Assembly: GCF_900537065.1 (NCBI RefSeq)
Contig: NZ_UNRC01000001.1
Location: 310,001 to 374,000 of the forward strand
Direction: 5' to 3'
Source of the DNA: Sphingorhabdus sp. Alg239-R122
Lineage (GTDB): Bacteria > Pseudomonadota > Alphaproteobacteria > Sphingomonadales > Sphingomonadaceae
DNA length: 64,000 nucleotides
The notes beneath the pieces were generated by a model. The model saw only the letters and a program-made list of their open reading frames with translations. It was not told where the DNA came from and made no database searches. Both the position numbers and the translations under genes were made by a program. Within the stretch, counting starts at the first letter, position 1, and each line of letters begins with the position of its first letter. Below are positions 6,601-37,875 of the stretch, piece after piece.

Positions 6601-7287
6601 ATGGCATGGACGGATGAACGCATCGACCAGTTGAAGGCGATGTGGGAAGAGGGGCTGACAGCCAGCCAGATAGCAGAAAAATTGGGTGGTGTAAGCCGTA
6701 ACGCTGTGATTGGCAAGGCACACCGGCTCGGCCTGAAATCGCGTCCTTCTCCTGTTAAGTCAGGCGGTAAGGGCAAAAAAGCCGCGCCAAGGAAAAAGGC
6801 AGCACCTAAAAAGAAGGCCGCCCCCAAGGCAGCAGCGAAAGTACCTGCAGCAAAAGCCAGTACAGCCAAACCCGCTGCGCCCGCGGCGAAACCAGCAGCA
6901 CCCACGCCCAATGCAAGTGTACCGAACCCGGCAGCCGCAAATAAGGACATGCCACGCATTGTTTCGGTCGGCCCCGGCGGATTTCTGCGTCAGGGTCCAG
7001 GTGACCAGCAGGCACCTATTCCGCCTGCCCCGCCCCGCCGTCTGGTGCCAGCACGCCCTAGCCCGGAAATTGCCGACAAGACCAGCCTGCTGGATCTTAG
7101 CGAGAAAGTATGCCGCTGGCCCATGGGACACCCCGGCGAACCTGATTTCCACTTTTGCGGCGCTGATGTGAATCCAGGCTTCCCTTATTGTGTGGAGCAT
7201 TGTGGCCGTGCCTATCAGGCACAATTGCCACGCGGCACACGCCGTCCGCCTCCGCCTCTGCCCTTTGGCGGCCCGCGCGTCAGATAA
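6601..7287 (+). CDS. gcrA: Cell-cycle regulator GcrA
   Basis: 228 residues. The N-terminal ~50 residues are the GcrA sigma-70-binding/helix-turn-helix module (MAWTDERIDQLKAMWEEG, SASQIAEKLG-like LTASQIAEKLGG, RNAVIGKAHRLGL). The C-terminus has the conserved CRWPMGHPG, FHFCGA and YCVEHCGRAYQ block with paired Cys/His. GcrA is a sigma-70 cofactor that activates promoters carrying CcrM-methylated GANTC sites. Between the two domains lies a long Lys/Ala/Pro-rich linker (about 52-110) that makes this protein noticeably longer than the Caulobacter form. AAGGA precedes the ATG by about 11 bases. It sits upstream of parE in the same direction. Confidence 0.93.
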   Translation: MAWTDERIDQLKAMWEEGLTASQIAEKLGGVSRNAVIGKAHRLGLKSRPSPVKSGGKGKKAAPRKKAAPKKKAAPKAAAKVPAAKASTAKPAAPAAKPAAPTPNASVPNPAAANKDMPRIVSVGPGGFLRQGPGDQQAPIPPAPPRRLVPARPSPEIADKTSLLDLSEKVCRWPMGHPGEPDFHFCGADVNPGFPYCVEHCGRAYQAQLPRGTRRPPPPLPFGGPRVR

Positions 7288-28400: not shown

Positions 28401-28878
28401 CCAGCAGTTTCTGGTCACGTTCCTCCATGGCTTTGAACCCAGGCACAATGTCCGCTTCAAGTGGGAAAGCGGCAAGCAGTGTCTGGCAGAAGCTATGGAT
28501 TGTCTGGATACGCAGTCCCCCGCCCGGTGCATCCAGCACGGTCGCGAATAATGTACGCGCATGGGCCAGCGCCTCGGGTCCAAAAGGTGCCCCAATGGCG
28601 CGCAGGTCAGCGGCAAGCTGCGCATCGTCCATCTGCACCCAACTGGCGAGCACGGCGTTGATGCGGTTCGCCATTTCGGTGGCCCCTGCCTTGGTAAAAG
28701 TCAGGCACAGTATATGTTCAGGCTTGATATGGGGCCGCAGCAGCAGGCGGAAAACGCGTGCAGACAATACCTGTGTCTTACCCGTACCGGCAGATGCGCT
28801 TAGCCAGATACTTTCGCTGGGTGCCACCGCCTTTTCCTGATTATCCAGCAGGGGAAATATCTTGCCGCTGCCGCTCAT
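25453..28878 (-). CDS. addA: Double-strand break repair helicase-nuclease AddA
   Basis: 1141 residues. A UvrD-like helicase core begins with Walker A ASAGTGKTQVLSARVFRLLL, followed by LCLTFTKAGATEMANRI, LIDEAQDTN, VGDFKQAIFGFQG and RVMTVHGAKGLQAPVVILAD. The C-terminal RecB-type nuclease domain has GTVDRLL and VADFKTSR. With AddB it resects broken DNA ends for RecA loading. It overlaps the addB stop by four bases (ATGA), so it is translationally coupled as the last gene of the divL-to-addA operon. Confidence 0.95.
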   Translation of the reverse strand: MSGSGKIFPLLDNQEKAVAPSESIWLSASAGTGKTQVLSARVFRLLLRPHIKPEHILCLTFTKAGATEMANRINAVLASWVQMDDAQLAADLRAIGAPFGPEALAHARTLFATVLDAPGGGLRIQTIHSFCQTLLAAFPLEADIVPGFKAMEERDQKLLVRAALVDMLAEAEANGDQRLLDNIAMLSVRMGEDASEKFLLRCAGAVDIWQGQDAWIGDLPPRVNALFGLDRAEDGGGLAEMCSDAALDVEALKALAADNMAWGTKTGIAAADKIHHWTATSPSERLAGLDAVLSVFLTQAGTPRKTSAGLLKANPDYDVQAHDIVTALIAIAEKRALIELADIFSRALEAGRAFAFAYRHAKQREAVVDFDDLIRIAAGLLSESGMADWIRYKLDRQFDHILIDEAQDTNLRQWRIVESLAGDFFAGEGAKEGRIRTLFTVGDFKQAIFGFQGTSPLNYEWARRHFRDAAKGSDMRLSDLTLAHSFRSAQPILDFVDTAISVIEPASLNLPEDPPRHAGDDRPGQVTLWNAVSAADDSDDGRDIGNDAEQWLSKPNRLLADRLARQIAVWLKNGLWLHKEKRWARPGDFMVLVRRRTDLAALIVARLYARDIPVAGIDRLRLGQPLGVQDLLAAVRFALQPHDDLNLANLLVSPIMGWTQEQLLERAYRDKHAGLWSHLRDTVDAAELTVLHAILQRADYTTPYQFLEWILTGEIGARAKLIARLGREVIDPLDELLNAALDYEKNHVPGLQQFLHWFESSDEEIKREVSDTADELRVMTVHGAKGLQAPVVILADCCTDPAATPDRSFGWKIDGVRELPVFGLRKTEMLGPPGEAYAASQASDMAEHWRLLYVAMTRAEERLYMVGAQSGRGDAIPANSWYAKIQDTFARLGEEQAADDIWLGAHHYVAAANVAENAQSEVQAGDAQGKTMAPEVVLPDWVMQPAADPGQPPRPLVPSAMRDDAADPPVMEQADRAAMERGRMLHSLFERLPELPDDEREAAALAWLEKQGRIADAQQRRDMVDNVLSVVRDGEWAGLFGPEALAEVPLAACVGERVVSGTVDRLLVNDDHIFVADFKTSRYPPVLLEKIPVAYIRQMAAYAAVLRQIYPGRTVSAGILYTQRPHMFTLPEKLLAAQKLD

Positions 28879-31874
28879 GTTTCCTCATCCGTAACCAGGC
28901 GGCCATACCATTCATCAAGCCGCATTAACTGGTCATAATCATTGTAGCTTGGCAGATCGGGGTTGAGTTTTGCCGTGAAAGGTTCTGCACCCAGTAGCCA
29001 GCGGTCAATCGCATCGATCAGATATTCTTCGGTTTTCTGTATGAATTCCTCACGCAGCAGGCCCGTGCGTTTGCGGCTTTCCTTGATGGGTTCGTCCCGG
29101 TAACCAAAACCGCCTGCTTTGTTCTTCGCCAGTGACCAATATTCAAACGCCTGCGGATCGCCCGATATGCCCTTAAAACCGCTGCGCTCCGCTATCATGC
29201 CCAGCAGGCCAAGCTGCAGCGCAAACCCTGCCTCAACCTGCGAACCGCTGGGTGGACTCCCGGTTTTATAATCGATAATGGCAAGTTTTTTGCCATCTGC
29301 GAGGCGGTCTATCCGGTCGACCTTACCCGATATGCGCACACCTTTGACAGTCATGTCACCCCAAATTTCCGCTACACACACTTCGCGGCCTTCTACCATT
29401 AAACGCTGTGTTTCCTCGGCAATCCAGTGGATCGCCGCCATCAGGCGCGGCCGCCACAATGTACGCAGCAGCGCATTGGCAGAACCCGACATCAGCAATG
29501 CCTCCGCCCGCGCGACAAGCTTGACAGGATCAAGCCCATCCTCTTTTTTCCATGCTTCGAGTATCTCGTGCACCGCGCTACCGCGCCATGCCGGACTAGG
29601 TGGCGCATCGACCATGTCCAGCGCGGCAAGGTGCAATATCTTGCGCGCATAAAATGCAAACGGGTCGGCGCGCAGCCGGTCAAGATCAGTGACAGCGATA
29701 TCAACGCGCCGCTGCGCCGCACCGGGCATGGGTCTGGGCTGTTCCATACGGCTCGCGGGCAATTGACGGTCAAGCGCACGGGCCAGATGCAGCGCCTCTT
29801 CGTCCATCTGCAACCGTGTACCCGACATCGCCTGTAAACGCAGGAAAAAGCGCGAGGCCACGGCAGGACCAGAGGCCTCGCGCCGTGCCCGAGTCAGAAT
29901 AACGTGCGGTGCACCCATCGCACCGGCCAGGTCATGCGCAGCAAGCCCAATGCGGAATTCAGGCGGCGCAAGGCCAATTTCACGGGCAATACGCGGCGAA
30001 AGCAACGGATCAATATCAGGTGTCTGCGGCCAGTTCCCCTCATTCAAGCCGCCGCAGATGACAAGGTCTGCCTGTTGCAGCCGCGCTTCCAGCAGGCCGT
30101 AAATCGCGACATGAGGGTGCTTGCCATAGGCAGGGCGGATCGCGGTTTCATCGGTGAAACTGCGTAAAATAGCTGGCCCATATCTGGGTTCCATGGCAAG
30201 TTTCACCTGTGCCGCCTCGGCCTCTATTTCGCTCAGCATATCAGCAGCTCCGCGCCCGGCCACACCCGACCATATCCGCGTCCCGCAAAGCGCCGTGGCG
30301 GTGTCCCGTAGCGCAGAGAGATAGTCGCTAAGCTGCGTTCCACCCGCCTTGCCGAGCACGATGACGGGTTGCATCAATTCCTCTACGCTGTCCAACCATG
30401 CCAGCAATTCTTCGCGTGCCTTAGCATCAGGCAGAGCGCGCTTGGCATCAGTGATAGCCTGACGCAGCGCTGCAAACCCGCCAGTGCGACGCGGACCTCG
30501 CAACGCAAGGTCGAACCTGCGCACCTGCCGCAGCCACTGCGCACGATCATCGCCAGACTGCACGAGCGGATGCTTGAACAGACCCAGCAGAGATACAGGC
30601 GCGAAATCCTCGCTGATGCATTCGGCCAGCGTAATGAGCAGGACGCCTTCAGGCACAACCGACAGCGCCTGCCCTGCACTGTCATCGGCATCGATATTCC
30701 ACCGTTTCAGATGCGCAGATACACGCGCTGCAAGTTGCCGGTCTGGCGTCACCACCGCGATCCGGTCTCCCTTTACTTCAAGCGCTTCACGTACGCGAAT
30801 AGAGATGGCAAGCGCCTCTTCCTCAGGATTGGCGGCTTCGATCACTTTAAGCTGGCTGACACTGCGCGCACGGGCATCTAGGCCGCGCCAATGACTGCTT
30901 TCCTCGGCGGGCAGGAAAATATTGCTAATGACATGCGCACGCTGTGCGGGTGCATCGCTCTGGCCTGAACGAGCCCAACGCATCACTTCATCGCGGTTCA
31001 CTCCCATGCGGTGCAGCAGCAGTTTAAGATGGTATTGCGGGTGCGTCACTACACCCACCGCAGGACGGGGTACATCGGGGCCGAATTCAACCGGCTCCAG
31101 CGTATCCCAGATATCATTATCCAGCGCCAGATCCAGATCGGGCAGCACCACCATCCCGTGCCGCATAAAAGCGATGGTTTTCTGGAGCGTTGCGATGGCC
31201 GGTGCAGCGGTGGTAATGCCAACCGCGATGATGGGGTACTGTGCCGGCTGCGTGTCCCATTTCCGCGCCGCGTGACGCAGCAGCCGGTTCCGCCTGTCCG
31301 CCGCATCGATCATACCAAGCGATGCGAGTTTTTTTTGCCAAGCCCCATGCACGCCTTCAAAAAAATTGAGTGATGTTCGCCAGTGATCGGCAAGCTCATC
31401 GGCAATATCTATCTCACCAAGCCGTGCGGGCGGGATCTCCTCGACCAGCAGGCTGTCAATCGTCGCTGCGACTTCACGCGCGAGCCGCAGCTTTTCTGTC
31501 GGTGAAAGCTCACCCTTCAGCAAATGCCCCGCCTCACCAATAATTTCGGTGAGCGCAAACAGTCTTTGCACAGGTTCCACCGCGGGCGGGATATCAGGCC
31601 CAGCGCCTATATTGTCGAGCGCACTGCCAAGTGACTCAGCAAGATCAATATCACCCACTGCCACCATGCGCGGCAGCAGCAACCCCTGTTCCGCCTGCCG
31701 CACAAATGCCTCTGTAATGGCGCGACCCGCGCGCTGGTTCGGCACCAGCAAGGTCAGGCGGGCAAGCTCACCCGTTTCCTTGCCAAACCGCGCGATAAGG
31801 CCCGTGGCAAGCGCATCGGCAAATCCCCGGTGTGCCGGAATGGAATAGACAGAAGCGCGGGTGCCATCAGCCAC
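28875..31874 (-). CDS. addB: Double-strand break repair protein AddB
   Basis: 999 residues, starting with GTG at 31874 and overlapping the murU stop by eight bases. The N-terminal part is a degenerate helicase fold (LLVPNQRAGRAITEAF). The C-terminal nuclease domain has GKVDRIDRL and AIIDYKTGSPP, the RecB-type catalytic residues. I did not find the four-Cys iron-sulfur staple of the Bacillus form; that matches the alphaproteobacterial AddB subtype. It works as a heterodimer with AddA. Confidence 0.92.
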   Translation of the reverse strand: MADGTRASVYSIPAHRGFADALATGLIARFGKETGELARLTLLVPNQRAGRAITEAFVRQAEQGLLLPRMVAVGDIDLAESLGSALDNIGAGPDIPPAVEPVQRLFALTEIIGEAGHLLKGELSPTEKLRLAREVAATIDSLLVEEIPPARLGEIDIADELADHWRTSLNFFEGVHGAWQKKLASLGMIDAADRRNRLLRHAARKWDTQPAQYPIIAVGITTAAPAIATLQKTIAFMRHGMVVLPDLDLALDNDIWDTLEPVEFGPDVPRPAVGVVTHPQYHLKLLLHRMGVNRDEVMRWARSGQSDAPAQRAHVISNIFLPAEESSHWRGLDARARSVSQLKVIEAANPEEEALAISIRVREALEVKGDRIAVVTPDRQLAARVSAHLKRWNIDADDSAGQALSVVPEGVLLITLAECISEDFAPVSLLGLFKHPLVQSGDDRAQWLRQVRRFDLALRGPRRTGGFAALRQAITDAKRALPDAKAREELLAWLDSVEELMQPVIVLGKAGGTQLSDYLSALRDTATALCGTRIWSGVAGRGAADMLSEIEAEAAQVKLAMEPRYGPAILRSFTDETAIRPAYGKHPHVAIYGLLEARLQQADLVICGGLNEGNWPQTPDIDPLLSPRIAREIGLAPPEFRIGLAAHDLAGAMGAPHVILTRARREASGPAVASRFFLRLQAMSGTRLQMDEEALHLARALDRQLPASRMEQPRPMPGAAQRRVDIAVTDLDRLRADPFAFYARKILHLAALDMVDAPPSPAWRGSAVHEILEAWKKEDGLDPVKLVARAEALLMSGSANALLRTLWRPRLMAAIHWIAEETQRLMVEGREVCVAEIWGDMTVKGVRISGKVDRIDRLADGKKLAIIDYKTGSPPSGSQVEAGFALQLGLLGMIAERSGFKGISGDPQAFEYWSLAKNKAGGFGYRDEPIKESRKRTGLLREEFIQKTEEYLIDAIDRWLLGAEPFTAKLNPDLPSYNDYDQLMRLDEWYGRLVTDEET

Positions 31875-32583
31875 CGCGCAGAAATTCCTCAGTGGGCTTC
31901 AGCGCGGCCGGGGTACCAACATCAAACCAGAAACTCTGATGCACCACACCGTGGAGACGCCCCTCGGCAATGGCGCGGTCCCAGAATATGTTGGTCGAAA
32001 ACTTATCCTGCGGCGGATCGACAATAAACTTTTTGGACATAAGCTGAATACCGGTAAACACGAATGGGGCAACTTTACGCGGTATACGCCGCGATAATCT
32101 GCCATCATTGCCAAGCACGAAATCGCCCTGGCCCTTATAATTATGCGCCCTCTGGTGAGGAACCAGCAATAACAAAGCATCCATCCTGTCCGCGTCCCAA
32201 TGTTCACTCAGCTGTGCAAATACGTTTTGCGGGCCATCAAGCCAGACATTGTCCGAATTCAGACAGAAAAACGGATCATCCTCAATCAGCGGCAGTGCCT
32301 TGATGAGGCCGCCACCGGTCTCGAGCAATTGCTCGCGCTCGTCGGAAATCCTGATATCCATCGGATAGGACAACCCTTCCAGATGTGCCTCAAGCGAATC
32401 CGCCAGATAATGGACATTGACGACAACATTGCAGATACCCGCATCCCACAATTTATCGAAACAGTGATCGATCAGCGGTTTGCCTGCCAGATGGACCAGC
32501 GGCTTTGGCCGGGTCGCGGTGAGCGGACGCATCCGTTTGCCCATGCCGGCAGCCATTACCATCGCCGTTTTCGATACCATCAT
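31867..32583 (-). CDS. murU: N-acetylmuramate alpha-1-phosphate uridylyltransferase (MurU-like)
   Basis: 238 residues with the nucleotidyltransferase signature MVMAAGMGKRMRPLTATRPKPLVHLAGKPLI, then NVHYLAD and DERE-like ISDEREQLLETGGG, LNSDNVW. In Pseudomonas and Caulobacter, MurU makes UDP-MurNAc from MurNAc-1-phosphate produced by AmgK, a recycling route that bypasses MurA and fosfomycin. Adjacency to an AmgK-like kinase with a four-base overlap supports this assignment over the general hexose-1-phosphate class. Confidence 0.85.
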   Translation of the reverse strand: MMVSKTAMVMAAGMGKRMRPLTATRPKPLVHLAGKPLIDHCFDKLWDAGICNVVVNVHYLADSLEAHLEGLSYPMDIRISDEREQLLETGGGLIKALPLIEDDPFFCLNSDNVWLDGPQNVFAQLSEHWDADRMDALLLLVPHQRAHNYKGQGDFVLGNDGRLSRRIPRKVAPFVFTGIQLMSKKFIVDPPQDKFSTNIFWDRAIAEGRLHGVVHQSFWFDVGTPAALKPTEEFLRGG

Positions 32584-33560
32584 GGCTGAAACTCCCCCCC
32601 CAAAACCTTACCTTGGCCGCGCACTTCAGCAGGAATATTGGTATCAAACCATGCGCGCACTTCCGTCAATGCTGGGTGTGCAAGATCTCGTTCCAGCGCT
32701 TCCCATACGCGCGGGATAAAGGAAAGATAACGCGGCTTGCCGTCACGCTTCCACAGCCGCACAAAAATACCGACAATCTTCAAATTCCGCTGTGCACCCA
32801 AAATGTGATAAGCGGTGCGGAAATCCTCGCTCATGCCAGTATTGTTACAGTAATAATCCAGCATGTCTGCTTCCAGCGCAGGCGCCACATCGCGCCGGGC
32901 ATCCTGTAACAGCGAAACAAGATCATAGGCCGCATGACCGACCAGTGCATCCTGAAAATCGAGCAAACCCTGTCCATTTTCAAGCAGCATGATGTTTTCC
33001 GCATGATAATCACGCAATACGGTCACGCCCGGATCTTGCTGTGCCAAAACAGACTCCAGTGCCCTATTCCAGATATTGGCATAATCACTCGTATCGACCT
33101 GCAGGCCCCGTGCCGGGCAATACCACTCAGTAAACAACGCCAGTTCCTGCTGGTAAAAATCGAGGTCATAGGGCGGGCAATCCGCAGGCGGGCGATCATG
33201 TAGCGCAATCAGCGTATCAATGGCCTCACGGTATACACCGCGTTCGGCATCTTCATTGGCATCAACATATTCACGCATCCGCCGGTCGCCAAAATCTTCG
33301 AGCAGCACTAGCCCTGCTTCGGCATCCGCCGCCAATATATCCGGCGCATTCAGATCATGCGCGCACAGATATTCGGCAATATGTAAAAATGGCTTCGGGT
33401 CTTCATCGGGCGGTGGCGCATCCATCAATATGGCTTTGCCCTGATTGCCATTCACCCGGAAATAACGGCGGCCAGACGCATCTCCATCAATCGGGTCAAG
33501 CACGCTACCCCCCCAATTCGCTTGTTCAAGAAACCTGCCAATATGCTCTGGTATATCCAT
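32580..33560 (-). CDS. amgK: Anomeric MurNAc/GlcNAc kinase (AmgK-like phosphotransferase)
   Basis: 326 residues of the aminoglycoside phosphotransferase (APH) fold: a nucleotide-binding N-lobe (DASGRRYFRV), the catalytic loop VLRDYHAENIMLL and the metal-binding LLDFQDALVGH. AmgK phosphorylates the anomeric hydroxyl of MurNAc and GlcNAc for cell-wall recycling. The pairing with murU is what distinguishes it from other APH-fold kinases. Two bases separate it from tsaE upstream, and its stop overlaps murU by four bases. Confidence 0.85.
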   Translation of the reverse strand: MDIPEHIGRFLEQANWGGSVLDPIDGDASGRRYFRVNGNQGKAILMDAPPPDEDPKPFLHIAEYLCAHDLNAPDILAADAEAGLVLLEDFGDRRMREYVDANEDAERGVYREAIDTLIALHDRPPADCPPYDLDFYQQELALFTEWYCPARGLQVDTSDYANIWNRALESVLAQQDPGVTVLRDYHAENIMLLENGQGLLDFQDALVGHAAYDLVSLLQDARRDVAPALEADMLDYYCNNTGMSEDFRTAYHILGAQRNLKIVGIFVRLWKRDGKPRYLSFIPRVWEALERDLAHPALTEVRAWFDTNIPAEVRGQGKVLGGEFQP

Positions 33561-33562
33561 TC

Positions 33563-34006
33563 CTATGTCAGCCTGTCCGTCCAGTTTTCATTCATTTTCA
33601 CATTAAGGTACCGCCCGCCCTGTTCGGCAAAATCGATGTGAATGGCAAGTGCATTTTCACCCAGTAAATGTGCTGCTTTTTCGGGCCATTCCACAATGAT
33701 AACACCATCCACAGTGGCATCATCCAGCCCAAGCTCATACAGTTCCGCGCTGTTTTCAATGCGGTAAAAATCGGCATGGACGGTGGGAATGCGCGTATCG
33801 GGCGGCGCATAATATTGCACGATAGAAAAACTTGGGCTCGGCACTTCACCGCTGTGCCCCAGGCCCAGCAATATACCGCGTGCCATAGTTGTTTTGCCTG
33901 TACCCAGTTCCCCGTGCAGTTTGATGACATCGCCCACTTGCAATGCCTCACCCAGCTTTTGCCCGAATGCCTGCATCTCGCCTGCATCTTTCACATGCCT
34001 TTTCAT
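33563..34006 (-). CDS. tsaE: tRNA threonylcarbamoyladenosine biosynthesis ATPase TsaE
   Basis: 147 residues with Walker A GELGTGKTTMARGIL, the family SPSFSIVQYY stretch, HADFYRIENSAELYELGLDD and VIIVEWPEKA. TsaE is the ATPase of the TsaBDE complex that adds the threonylcarbamoyl group to A37 of ANN-decoding tRNAs. The ATG overlaps the divL stop by four bases, so it is translated with divL. Confidence 0.94.
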   Translation of the reverse strand: MKRHVKDAGEMQAFGQKLGEALQVGDVIKLHGELGTGKTTMARGILLGLGHSGEVPSPSFSIVQYYAPPDTRIPTVHADFYRIENSAELYELGLDDATVDGVIIVEWPEKAAHLLGENALAIHIDFAEQGGRYLNVKMNENWTDRLT

Positions 34007-36345
34007 GGCAGTGTCAGGGTGACCACAGTTCCCTCTCCCTGCCGCGAGATAATGTCGAATATGCCGCCCTGCGCCTCCACAAGCTGTTTGGCCAGTGGCA
34101 GGCCCAGCCCGCTATTATGTTGCTTGTCCTCCACATCCCGTTCAGACGCAATTCCGCCCAGTATCGCGGCCACAGCCTGCATATCCATACCCGGTCCGTT
34201 GTCAGAAATGACAATCTGCGTCTGACTATCCTTGGGTGCAGCGTGGATTAATATACGCCCTTTTTCCTGTGTATATTCAAGTGCATTGTCCAATATATTG
34301 CCGATTGCCTGTGCAAGCCTTTTTTCATCACCGCGCAGCGTGGCAAGTTCGGGATCAAGCTGGATATCAAGGTCGATATGCTTGGCCTCGACCGTCTCTT
34401 CCCGGCTATTGGCAAGTTCCGCAAGAAACTCGGCAACTTCAATATCGGTCTGTACAAGCGGCATGGCGCCCGCCTCACTCTGGCTGAGATCAAGGACATT
34501 TTCTATCTGTCCGCTGAGCCGGTCGACCGAATCGAGTATGGCATCTACATATTCCTGCGCCTGCCCAGGCAGCGGCCCGGCTATGCCGCTCGACAGCATT
34601 TCCGCAAAGCCGCCAATGGAAGTGAGTGGCGTGCGGAATTCGTAACTCATATTCGCCAGGAATTTGCCCTTGATCGAATCCGCTTCAACCAGTGCATCGT
34701 TACGCTCCCGCAGCGCTTGTTCGATCTGCTGGCTGTCAGAGATATCGAGCATGGTCAGCATCGCATTGCCATCGGGCAAGGGGATGCCGGCAAATTCGAA
34801 ACAACGTCCATCGGAAAGGATAATCCGGCCATTGCGTTGGTTCCGGTCCAGTGTAGCGGCGCGGATAATGTCCCGCAGCGCCGCAATCTGCGCTGGACGC
34901 TGCAATCTGGGCGCCAGCATTTTCATCAATTCGTCGACGCGTGGATGTTCAGCCAAGCTGTCTTCTTCAATCGACCATATCCGCATGAAACGGCGGTTCC
35001 ACAGGTGCAATCGGCCATCGGGAGAAAACACCGCCAGCGCTTCGAACAGACTGTCAAACATGGCAGTGCGCACCCGCAGCAGGGTATCGCGCGCACTGGC
35101 CAGCTGTACCTGCTCGGTCCTGTCTTCAAATATCAGCAGCAATCCGCCATCGGGCGTTGGTTGCGCAATGGCACGCAAATGCGTTCCGTCAGGCAGAAGC
35201 CAATTATCTTCAATCGCTTCAGTGCTGGTGAACCAGGCACGTTTTTGTCCTTTCCATTCCGGAAAATCACGCACTTCGGGCACACAACCCGCTTCACGCA
35301 TCCGGTCAAGTATCCGGTCAAATTCAGGGGAGTTATTCACCCATTGCGGCCGCAACGAGAAAATGCGCTGAAATGGCTGGTTGCAAAATACTAACGCCTT
35401 TTCGCTGTCAAATTGCGCAACGCCCGCTGACATATTGTCCAGCATGTCACGCTGGGCACGGCGAAACTGACCAAATTCATTTTTCAGGCTTTCCAGCTCC
35501 TGCACATTGATCGCATATCCCGCGACACCCATTTCCCCGAGTGGCAAGTCGACAACGCGCATAACCTGCCGCTTGCCGTCAATCGTGGTGGCCACAGTGC
35601 GTTCCACCATACGTTCGTCCGACCGGGCCTTCGCGGCCACCGCTGCGGGCGTCAGGCCATCTACGGTTTCAACGAGCTCCATATTGTCAGCCACGACCTG
35701 CTTGGCATCCGCGCCATCCACCGCTTTCACATAAGCCGAATTGACCAATGTGATATTGCCGTCCGTGTCACGGTGCCACATTGGCATGGGCGCAGCTTCG
35801 ATCAAGGTCGAAAGCGACGAAAATGCCGTTTCGGCATGACTCAGGCGCGATTGCAGTGATTCGATATTTTCCTGACTTTCGGTATCATCGAAAATCCACA
35901 GAAGCGCCGCTCCCAAGGGCGCTATTTGCGGGTCGGCTTGATGCCCTTTGATACGCAAGCTTTTGCGCGAAGATTTGACGTTTATCTTGGTGGTAAAGGG
36001 CCGCGCGGTCTTCTGCGCAGCAGTAATATGGCCCTGCACTTCCTGCAGATCATCCTCACTCCAGCCTGTATCCCCGCGTGAAAGGTCAGAAAAATAGGGC
36101 GGCAAGCCATCCAGACCGAACCAGCGAGCCAATCGCTCCGGCCCCTCTATCCGTCCATCGGTCCGCACCAGCAGCGGCAAGGCGGGCGCTTCGTCGAGCA
36201 TTTTGCCCAGCCTGCGCGAATGGCGCAGTGTTGCCTGCGCGCGGCGGCGTACCGAAAGCCCGCTGCTAACTGCCCAGATGCCACCCACAACCCATGCAGC
36301 GAGCAGCAGGCCTAGGAAAAATACGGCGCTATCGGATAATGTCAC
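34003..36345 (-). CDS. divL: DivL-like PAS-domain tyrosine 'histidine kinase'
   Basis: 780 residues. One N-terminal membrane segment (7-29) is followed by a long PAS-rich region (~50-540) and then HisKA and HATPase domains. In the HisKA H-box the phosphoacceptor His is replaced by Tyr568 (NMSYEFRTPLTS), the hallmark of DivL. The ATPase domain keeps the N box (NILDNALEY), G1 (DNGPGM) and G2 (GLGLPLAK). In Caulobacter DivL acts through the hybrid kinase CckA to control CtrA and division asymmetry. Orthology rests on the Tyr, length, topology and the downstream tsaE; a non-DivL pseudokinase is the alternative. First gene of the operon running to addA. Confidence 0.8.
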   Translation of the reverse strand: MTLSDSAVFFLGLLLAAWVVGGIWAVSSGLSVRRRAQATLRHSRRLGKMLDEAPALPLLVRTDGRIEGPERLARWFGLDGLPPYFSDLSRGDTGWSEDDLQEVQGHITAAQKTARPFTTKINVKSSRKSLRIKGHQADPQIAPLGAALLWIFDDTESQENIESLQSRLSHAETAFSSLSTLIEAAPMPMWHRDTDGNITLVNSAYVKAVDGADAKQVVADNMELVETVDGLTPAAVAAKARSDERMVERTVATTIDGKRQVMRVVDLPLGEMGVAGYAINVQELESLKNEFGQFRRAQRDMLDNMSAGVAQFDSEKALVFCNQPFQRIFSLRPQWVNNSPEFDRILDRMREAGCVPEVRDFPEWKGQKRAWFTSTEAIEDNWLLPDGTHLRAIAQPTPDGGLLLIFEDRTEQVQLASARDTLLRVRTAMFDSLFEALAVFSPDGRLHLWNRRFMRIWSIEEDSLAEHPRVDELMKMLAPRLQRPAQIAALRDIIRAATLDRNQRNGRIILSDGRCFEFAGIPLPDGNAMLTMLDISDSQQIEQALRERNDALVEADSIKGKFLANMSYEFRTPLTSIGGFAEMLSSGIAGPLPGQAQEYVDAILDSVDRLSGQIENVLDLSQSEAGAMPLVQTDIEVAEFLAELANSREETVEAKHIDLDIQLDPELATLRGDEKRLAQAIGNILDNALEYTQEKGRILIHAAPKDSQTQIVISDNGPGMDMQAVAAILGGIASERDVEDKQHNSGLGLPLAKQLVEAQGGIFDIISRQGEGTVVTLTLP

Positions 36346-36477: not shown

Positions 36478-37875
36478 TTAGTAGCGGTAGGCGTCCGTCT
36501 TGAACGGCCCTTCCACAGGAACATCGATATAATCGGCCTGTTCCTCGGACAGTTCGGTGAGTTGCACGCCCAGTTTGTCAAGGTGCAGACGCGCCACTTT
36601 CTCGTCCAGATGCTTGGGCAGGACATAGACCTGGTTTTCATACTGATCGCTGCGCAGCCACAGTTCGATCTGCGCCAGCACCTGGTTGGTGAAGCTGGCA
36701 GACATGACGAAGCTGGGGTGGCCCGTGGCATTACCCAGGTTAAGCAGGCGGCCCTGTGACAACAGGATCATACGGTTGCCATCCGGGAATTCGATCATGT
36801 CAACCTGTGGCTTGATCTCGGTCCATTTCAGGTTCGACAGCGCGCCGACCTGAATTTCATTATCAAAGTGGCCGATATTGCCGACAATCGCCATGTCTTT
36901 CATCGCACGCATATGGTCGATGGTGATAACGTCTTTGTTACCCGTTGTAGTGATGAAGATGTCAGCCGTCGGTGCGACGTCCTCCAGCTTTTGCACATCA
37001 AAACCGTCCATGGCGGCCTGAAGCGCGCAGATCGGATCGATTTCGGTGACAACAACGCGGGCACCAGCACCTTTCAAAGAGGCTGCGGAGCCTTTGCCGA
37101 CATCGCCATAACCACACACAACAGCCACTTTACCGGCCATCATCACGTCTGTACCGCGGCGGATGCCGTCGACCAGCGATTCCTTACAGCCATATTTATT
37201 GTCAAATTTCGACTTGGTGACACTGTCATTCACGTTGATCGCCGGAAAAGGCAACAGACCTTTTTTGGCCAGATCATAAAGGCGGTGCACACCTGTGGTG
37301 GTTTCTTCAGACACGCCCTTAATCGCTTCAACCGTCTTGGTCAGATAGCCGGGTGATTTTTCCAGGCGCTCTTTGAGCACCTTGGCGAAAGCTTCTTCTT
37401 CTTCATTGGTGGGAGTGAACAGTTCTTCACCCGCTTCAACGCGCGCGCCCCAAAGCGCATACATAGTCGCATCACCGCCATCGTCGAGGATCAGGTTACA
37501 TGTTTCGCCTGATTCTGCGCCCCAGTCGAAAATACGGTCCACATATTGCCAATATTCTTCCAGAGTTTCGCCTTTGATGGCGAAAACTGGAATGCCCTGA
37601 TCCGCAATCGCAGCTGCAGCATGATCCTGTGTCGAATAAATGTTGCATGATGCCCAACGCACTTCCGCGCCCAGCGCAATCAGCGTTTCAATCAGAACCG
37701 CTGTCTGGATCGTCATGTGCAGCGAACCAGTGATTTTCGAGCCTTTCAGCGGCTTTTCTTCACCATATTCTTCACGAATGGCCATCAGGCCCGGCATTTC
37801 GGTTTCGGCGATCGCAATTTCATTGCGGCCATATTCGGCAAGCGAAATATCTTTTACGATATAGTCATTGGACAC
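36478..37875 (-). CDS. ahcY: Adenosylhomocysteinase
   Basis: 465 residues with a GTG start and a strong ribosome site (TAAGGAG eight bases upstream). The NAD-binding motif is [18 protein letters not shown], and conserved blocks such as [21 protein letters not shown] and [13 protein letters not shown] are present. The C-terminus ends in KTDAYRY, as in bona fide SAH hydrolases. It splits S-adenosylhomocysteine to adenosine and homocysteine, relieving product inhibition of methyltransferases. A leader hairpin lies just upstream and a terminator downstream, so it is a single-gene unit. Confidence 0.98.

Follow-up and report, generated by a model that had tools for sequence, protein, structure and literature searches.

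A predicted DivL pseudo-histidine kinase of Sphingorhabdus sp. Alg239-R122 and the joint absence of its DHp domain and DivK in other Sphingomonadaceae

DivL is a disabled kinase that probably helps to time the bacterial cell cycle. In Caulobacter, the DHp domain of DivL bears a tyrosine (Tyr550) and senses phosphorylated DivK (DivK~P), as described in the DivL passages of Childers et al. (2014; PMC4211667). The same passages report that DivL has no kinase activity and keeps its N, G1, F, and G2 boxes, that its nucleotide sites either cannot be reached or have no room for ATP, and that there is one natural exception among the DivLs with an alanine at the tyrosine site. The fate of this domain has been linked to that of DivK. 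According to a statement in Brilli et al. (2010; PMC2877005), given there as data not shown, a DivL without kinase domain always goes together with the absence of DivK, and a section of that article describes degeneration or loss of DivJ-PleC-DivK in the Sphingomonadales. Excerpts of a further article (PMC9430884) describe the same progression for the Rhodobacterales, with degenerate long DivLs in two cases and one species that has a short DivL plus DivK. Because the relevant parts of both articles report it, the principle that DivL and DivK are lost together is already known. Within-genus loss of the DHp domain and counts for the Sphingomonadaceae were not found in the open PMC literature among the matches listed.

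The window analyzed in this study is a stretch of 64,000 nucleotides (G000:C1:310001-374000) from the genome of Sphingorhabdus sp. Alg239-R122 (G000; 2.5 Mb, 99.96% complete). It contains a gene (Table 1) that the original prediction described as a DivL-type kinase with a tyrosine at the phosphoacceptor site and intact ATP-binding motifs, with gcrA in the same window. The sequence reading agrees with the tyrosine, since the H-box reads NMSYEFRTPL with a TAC codon at residue 568, and gcrA was indeed found in the window by its Pfam domain. All five Pfam domains of the protein score over their cut-offs. Three of these are PAS domains, and the predicted secondary structure contains four PAS-like units. 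A hydrophobic segment at the N-terminus probably represents a membrane anchor. The ATP-binding part reads LDNALEYT (N box), SDNGPGM (G1 box), and SGLGLPLA (G2 box), and no clear F box was seen. The presence of the three boxes and the title of PDB entry 4q20, which says ‘tyrosine kinase’, would suit a tyrosine kinase that is active and phosphorylates itself at Tyr568. We consider such an activity quite improbable, as intact ATP motifs do not imply an active enzyme: Caulobacter DivL keeps its motifs and is reported, in the passages mentioned above, to be kinase-inactive with nucleotide sites unfit for ATP (PMC4211667).

Table 1. Position of divL, its domains, and its neighbors in the window, along with features at other sites. 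Positions are those of the window unless a contig or locus is given; residues are those of the window DivL.
Feature	Position	Strand	Remarks
gcrA	6601..7224	+	Pfam PF07750, 3.2e-24
ORF, 999 aa, downstream of divL	28875-31874		Presumably addB-like
NTP transferase	31867..32583	-	Conserved neighbor
APH-type phosphotransferase	32580..33560	-	Conserved neighbor
tsaE	33563..34006	-	Pfam TsaE; its start overlaps the divL stop
divL	34003..36345	-	780 aa, GTG start; four PAS-like units, DHp, CA
CA (ATP-binding), residues 672-780	34006..34332	-	Pfam PF02518; N, G1, and G2 boxes seen
DHp (HisKA), residues 559-626	34468..34671	-	Pfam PF00512; segment absent in congener G001
TAC codon, Tyr568 replacing the phospho-His	34642..34644	-	Minus strand ATG AGT TAC GAA TTC
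PAS_4, residues 430-537	34735..35058	-	Pfam PF08448
PAS_7, residues 302-414	35104..35442	-	Pfam PF12860
PAS, residues 178-270	35536..35814	-	Pfam PF00989
Hydrophobic N-terminal segment, residues 7-26	36268..36327	-	Seen in the sequence; putative membrane anchor
ahcY, upstream of divL	36478..37875	-	Directly before tsaE in 11/17 genomes without divL match
His-less kinase, 526-aa frame, outside the window	G000:C1:253911-255488	-	HATPase_c, no HisKA hit; also L056, L219
divK of the same genome	C10:30296-30655		VEDN, MDIQLP, TAY, and SKP present
DHp-less divL of G001	L002 4001-6082; L013		

The assignment to DivL is supported by the best PDB match, by the grouping in a tree, and by the conservation of the tyrosine. 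Caulobacter DivL (4q20) comes first among 56 PDB sequence matches (E ≤ 0.001) with an E-value of 8.2e-33, the next entry having 6.6e-25, and its tyrosine aligns opposite Tyr568. The predicted structure of the window DivL also ranks 4q20_B first (Z 21.9, 177 residues, rmsd 3.1, 30% identity), a rank that is tied within 1 with ZraS and RetS; the predicted structures have a low inter-domain confidence (pTM 0.29), and the DHp domain is poor in the window model. In a tree of 60 DHp-CA rows, one branch (88/87) parts all DivLs, including that of Caulobacter (represented by its DHp-CA part only), from 30 other kinases, two of which (L056 and L057) are themselves His-less. No grouping of the window kinase with ordinary PAS histidine kinases was seen in this tree, and the decayed DivL of genome G015, discussed below, sits inside the DivL group.

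Among 82 NCBIfam matches, the best 25 are to models of kinases in general, such as PnpS and PhoR; none of these reaches its cut-off or names DivL. Together with the generic HisKA and HATPase_c hits, they would also fit an ordinary PAS sensor histidine kinase whose histidine was recently mutated or is missing through a sequencing error. This explanation is rejected by the DHp-CA tree and by the tyrosine in close relatives, and we give it a negligible chance: Caulobacter DivL and all DHp-bearing orthologs from the eight family codes covered have the tyrosine, and the tsaE locus is conserved. For the Sphingomonadaceae, 133 divL loci were available, namely those of the 132 out of 149 genomes that match at 1e-40 (seven first-look candidates scored per genome) and that of G001, a genome outside this draw. 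The tyrosine is present in 129 of these loci, and the other four (G001, G015, G059, and G138) have no DHp domain. Another 12 loci, drawn from seven further family codes of the order, have it without exception, which brings the total to 141 out of 141 DHp-bearing DivLs, none with a histidine at this site; among them is a congener DivL that is 95% identical to the window DivL. Since every DHp-bearing DivL examined has the tyrosine, a chance read or sequencing slip is excluded for Tyr568. The letters ‘E’ (G001) and ‘H’ (G138) in the tyrosine column were rejected as substitutions, being misaligned letters of proteins in which the DHp domain is missing.

The gene order around divL is conserved as well: a tsaE match lies beside divL on the same strand at all 133 Sphingomonadaceae loci (126 within a simple gap window and seven outside it). 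The gene itself is split over two frames in G043, lies on two contigs in G130, and contains an in-frame TGA in G009. Judged from its sequence, the window gene is an ordinary sphingomonad DivL and its identification is routine. It confirms a Caulobacter-type DivL in this sphingomonad, and its interest lies in the natural experiment found around divL in related genomes.

The own genome of the window encodes DivK (Table 1), a CckA-like frame of 824 aa with PAS, HisKA, HATPase_c, and receiver domains, and a CtrA with 79% identity to its typed Caulobacter counterpart. Genome G001, of the same genus, encodes a DivL that is 80% identical over residues 1-538, after which the DHp domain is missing in frame. 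Its CA domain is decayed, with DHS for DNA, DNASG for DNGPG, and AGGLPF for SGLGLPL, so that the N, G1, and G2 boxes are lost. The frame is open for 710 codons. In the AlphaFold prediction, what is left of the CA domain still folds, as do the PAS domains; the new linker has low confidence. No second DivL was found in G001 with a DHp-CA query (the best other match has 27% identity), and a sequence search gave no DivK match at E ≤ 1e-16; G000 and G002 have DivK. CckA is kept in G001, with 83% identity over 805/806 residues, as is a CtrA with 79% identity to the typed Caulobacter CtrA. These three congeneric genomes, two with DivK and a full DivL and one in which no DivK was found and the DHp domain is missing, form a clean set on the role of this domain. 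The DivLs of G015, G059, and G138 are also without DHp domain and have a decayed CA domain, and no DivK match was found in these genomes at 1e-28; that of G138 is a weak receiver match with 36% identity.

In addition, 17 of the 149 Sphingomonadaceae genomes have no divL match at 1e-40. Eleven of these have ahcY and then tsaE with no divL match between them; in G034 and G119, the stretch examined contains tsaE and no ahcY. In G150 (L086), a divL remnant of about 72 codons is found between ahcY and tsaE and DivK is present, which makes this genome a counter-example to the co-loss. For 14 genomes, the loss of divL is thus supported by the locus itself. The remaining three were not counted as losses: G106 has no tsaE match, the contig of G129 ends in tsaE, and G156 has a weak tsaE match in an assembly of 320 contigs. 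In the co-loss tree, G129 carries no score, and G106 and G156 are not included.

At 1e-28, 22 of the 149 genomes gave no DivK match, with up to 29 candidates scored per genome; all candidates were scored in a DivK search of 30 genomes and, with the DHp-CA query, in G005 and G015. Two of the 22 were taken as G153 and G156 from the 30-genome search. G123 and G138 were counted as DivK-less because their matches are weak (35–36% identity, 1e-20 and 1e-17), the accepted copies having at least 65% identity. Both traits were scored in 143 genomes, G001 included, of which 120 have both the DHp domain and DivK, 17 have neither, five have the DHp domain only, and one has DivK only. In other words, 18 genomes are without DivL or its DHp domain, and 17 of them are without DivK. 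The five genomes with a DHp domain and no DivK match are G031, G036, G070, G071, and G096, with G036 and G096 being only 66–67% complete. The DivL of G071 (L097) combines a Tyr-bearing DHp domain with a degenerate G2 box, in a genome with no match to DivK or to the His-less kinase described below, and possibly represents an intermediate state of decay.

The association between DHp domain and DivK has a Fisher p of 1e-16, which takes no account of kinship. Kinship was followed in a TsaE+APH tree of 154 rows; G038, G122, G137, G148, G156, G021, and G027 were left out of it because their sequences are short. A DHp-less DivL without DivK needs three changes on the tree (at least two on starred branches), and the absence of DivL without DivK also three. 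With the DHp domain as first trait there are six independent pairs; on average, DivK follows the DHp domain in 4.8 of them, and it goes against it in none (median p 0.0625, range 0.0625–0.25). With DivK as first trait there are seven pairs, 4.5 of which change the same way (median p 0.125). The phylogenetic support for the co-loss is suggestive, not significant.

CckA and CtrA were searched in 40 genomes. CckA (E ≤ 1e-90, 25 first-look candidates scored) is present in 32 of them; at this threshold none was found in G015, G044, G052, G114, G123, G126, and the incomplete G036 and G096. Eight DivL-less genomes (G005, G034, G077, G086, G110, G119, G147, and G153) have a CckA match that starts only from about residue 304, in frames of 520–594 aa with 43–48% identity and E-values of 1e-110 to 1e-134. 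These short matches may represent a CckA without N-terminal sensor part or another hybrid kinase, the latter because two further hybrid kinases of G130, where the true CckA is in two pieces, match the same stretch (from about residue 309, 38–40%, about 1e-91). CtrA (1e-60) was found in 36 of the 40 genomes and not in G015, G052, G123, and G096. Its identity to that of Caulobacter is 50–66% in 11 of the genomes where divL loss is visible, 77–79% in G106, G129, G150, and G156, and 46% in G036. G138 and G153 have three CtrA-like matches each, one of those in G138 being partial.

In 13 of the 14 genomes with visible divL loss (all but G150), CckA is short or was not detected and CtrA is diverged or was not detected, and the independent events are few (p 0.06–0.13). 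These findings would fit a DivL in which the link between DHp domain and DivK is an accident of ancestry, a few lineages having shed much of the CtrA network for unrelated reasons. However, G001, G059, and G138, without DHp domain and DivK, keep the PAS part beside a full-length CckA and a CtrA that is 77–79% identical to that of Caulobacter, and the same association is reported for the Rhodobacterales in parts of the two articles cited above (PMC2877005, PMC9430884). We therefore regard an accident of ancestry as rather unlikely. The pattern in these three genomes fits a modular DivL, in which the DHp domain would tend to go with DivK while the PAS part stays with CckA and CtrA. G015 (L092) has a persisting DHp-less DivL of 626 codons and, at the thresholds given, no CckA and no CtrA, so that an explanation by which the PAS part is kept for CckA fails in this genome.

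The genome of the window encodes a second kinase without phospho-His (Table 1), the neighbor of which we take to be a citrate-synthase-like gene. The family matches in 122 genomes at 1e-50 (11 first-look candidates scored per genome), and 97 copies were read. In 88 of them, the aligned site holds a residue other than histidine (proline in 52, arginine in nine, alanine in six, and others; serine in G000). Six copies have the canonical SHELRTP (G009, G014, G054, G066, G070, and G099), two have a histidine in an otherwise lost H-box (G038 and G122), and one is doubtful (G036). The 88 His-less copies conserve the CA residues (Asn in 87, the G1 Asp in 88, and the G2 Gly in 88), and their H-box has Arg at H+3 in 78, Pro at H+5 in 87, Thr at H+4 in four, and Glu at H+1 in none. 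A Pfam scan of 14 members gave HATPase_c in all and HisKA in 12 (at 0.01), the copy of G000 not being one of these 12. With G038 and G122 counted as lost, the histidine label needs two changes on the tree; one of them would be due to the doubtful long row of G036, which is one of the seven His rows.

This second kinase tends to travel with DivK. Among the 149 genomes, 118 have both, 18 neither, nine only DivK, and four only the kinase, with seven names of the genomes without the kinase being obtained by subtraction. About five independent pairs change the same way and 0.1–0.3 the opposite way (median p 0.0625). G001 has no second-kinase match between its flanking genes, which are direct neighbors there, their frames about 100 bp apart. 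Basal sphingomonad members keep SHELRTPLNAIIGFA, which presumably is PleC/DivJ-like in look. The NCBIfam model for DivJ gives the His-bearing member L236 176.6 bits at a cut-off of 1000, with HrmK (199.1), TorS (196.1), and PRK15347 (189.4) scoring higher; it is the fourth-best model for L236 and the sixth for the copy of G000, all below cut-off. Since DivJ stays below its cut-off and three models score higher, a kinship with PleC/DivJ is weakly indicated. Nothing on point for a His-less sphingomonad kinase was found in titles and abstract openings of the open PMC literature among the matches listed. As the histidine is gone, this protein is unlikely to be a plain DivK kinase; judged from the preserved ATP site and from the Arg and Pro of its H-box, it may be an ATP-dependent reader of DivK or a partner working on the histidine of another protein. 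Its tendency to occur with DivK raises the question of what phosphorylates DivK in sphingomonads.

Taken together, we consider it probable (roughly 85%) that the window gene encodes DivL, a probably membrane-anchored multi-PAS pseudo-histidine kinase that would act on CckA and CtrA~P. The Tyr-bearing DHp domain would transfer no phosphate and instead dock DivK~P; via the PAS domains, the bound state would then set CckA between kinase and phosphatase, resulting in the control of CtrA~P. The signaling through CckA that was originally predicted is thus presumed for this organism by analogy with Caulobacter. More tentatively, the DivK branch of the CtrA network in the core Sphingomonadaceae might work with two acceptor-less kinases, the Tyr-bearing DivL and the His-less one, which is perhaps derived from PleC/DivJ. 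Both would serve to read DivK or to gate it, and not to phosphorylate it in the usual manner. The His-less kinase, DivK, and the DHp domain would then be shed together, as is seen within the genus of the window.

Compared to known systems, the window DivL shares the H-box tyrosine, the DHp-CA fold, and the preceding PAS domains with Caulobacter crescentus DivL (4q20; PMC4211667, DivL passages), and in both organisms the DivK, CckA, and CtrA genes are present in the same genome. In contrast, the two proteins are only 30% identical over the structurally aligned part, and the function of the sphingomonad protein is read here from its sequence. The sphingomonad DivKs are mostly 45–59% identical to Caulobacter DivK, and 66–74% in seven basal genomes. 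The second kinase differs from the PleC, DivJ, and PdhS kinases in that the phospho-His is gone in 88 of 97 copies, while the CA domain is kept. With the short kinase-less DivLs of the Rhodobacterales, as described in parts of PMC2877005 and PMC9430884, the DHp-less DivLs of G001, G015, G059, and G138 have in common that the pseudokinase part is gone where DivK is absent. They differ in that a decayed CA domain remains after the loss of the DHp domain, and in that both states of DivL occur within the genus of the window.
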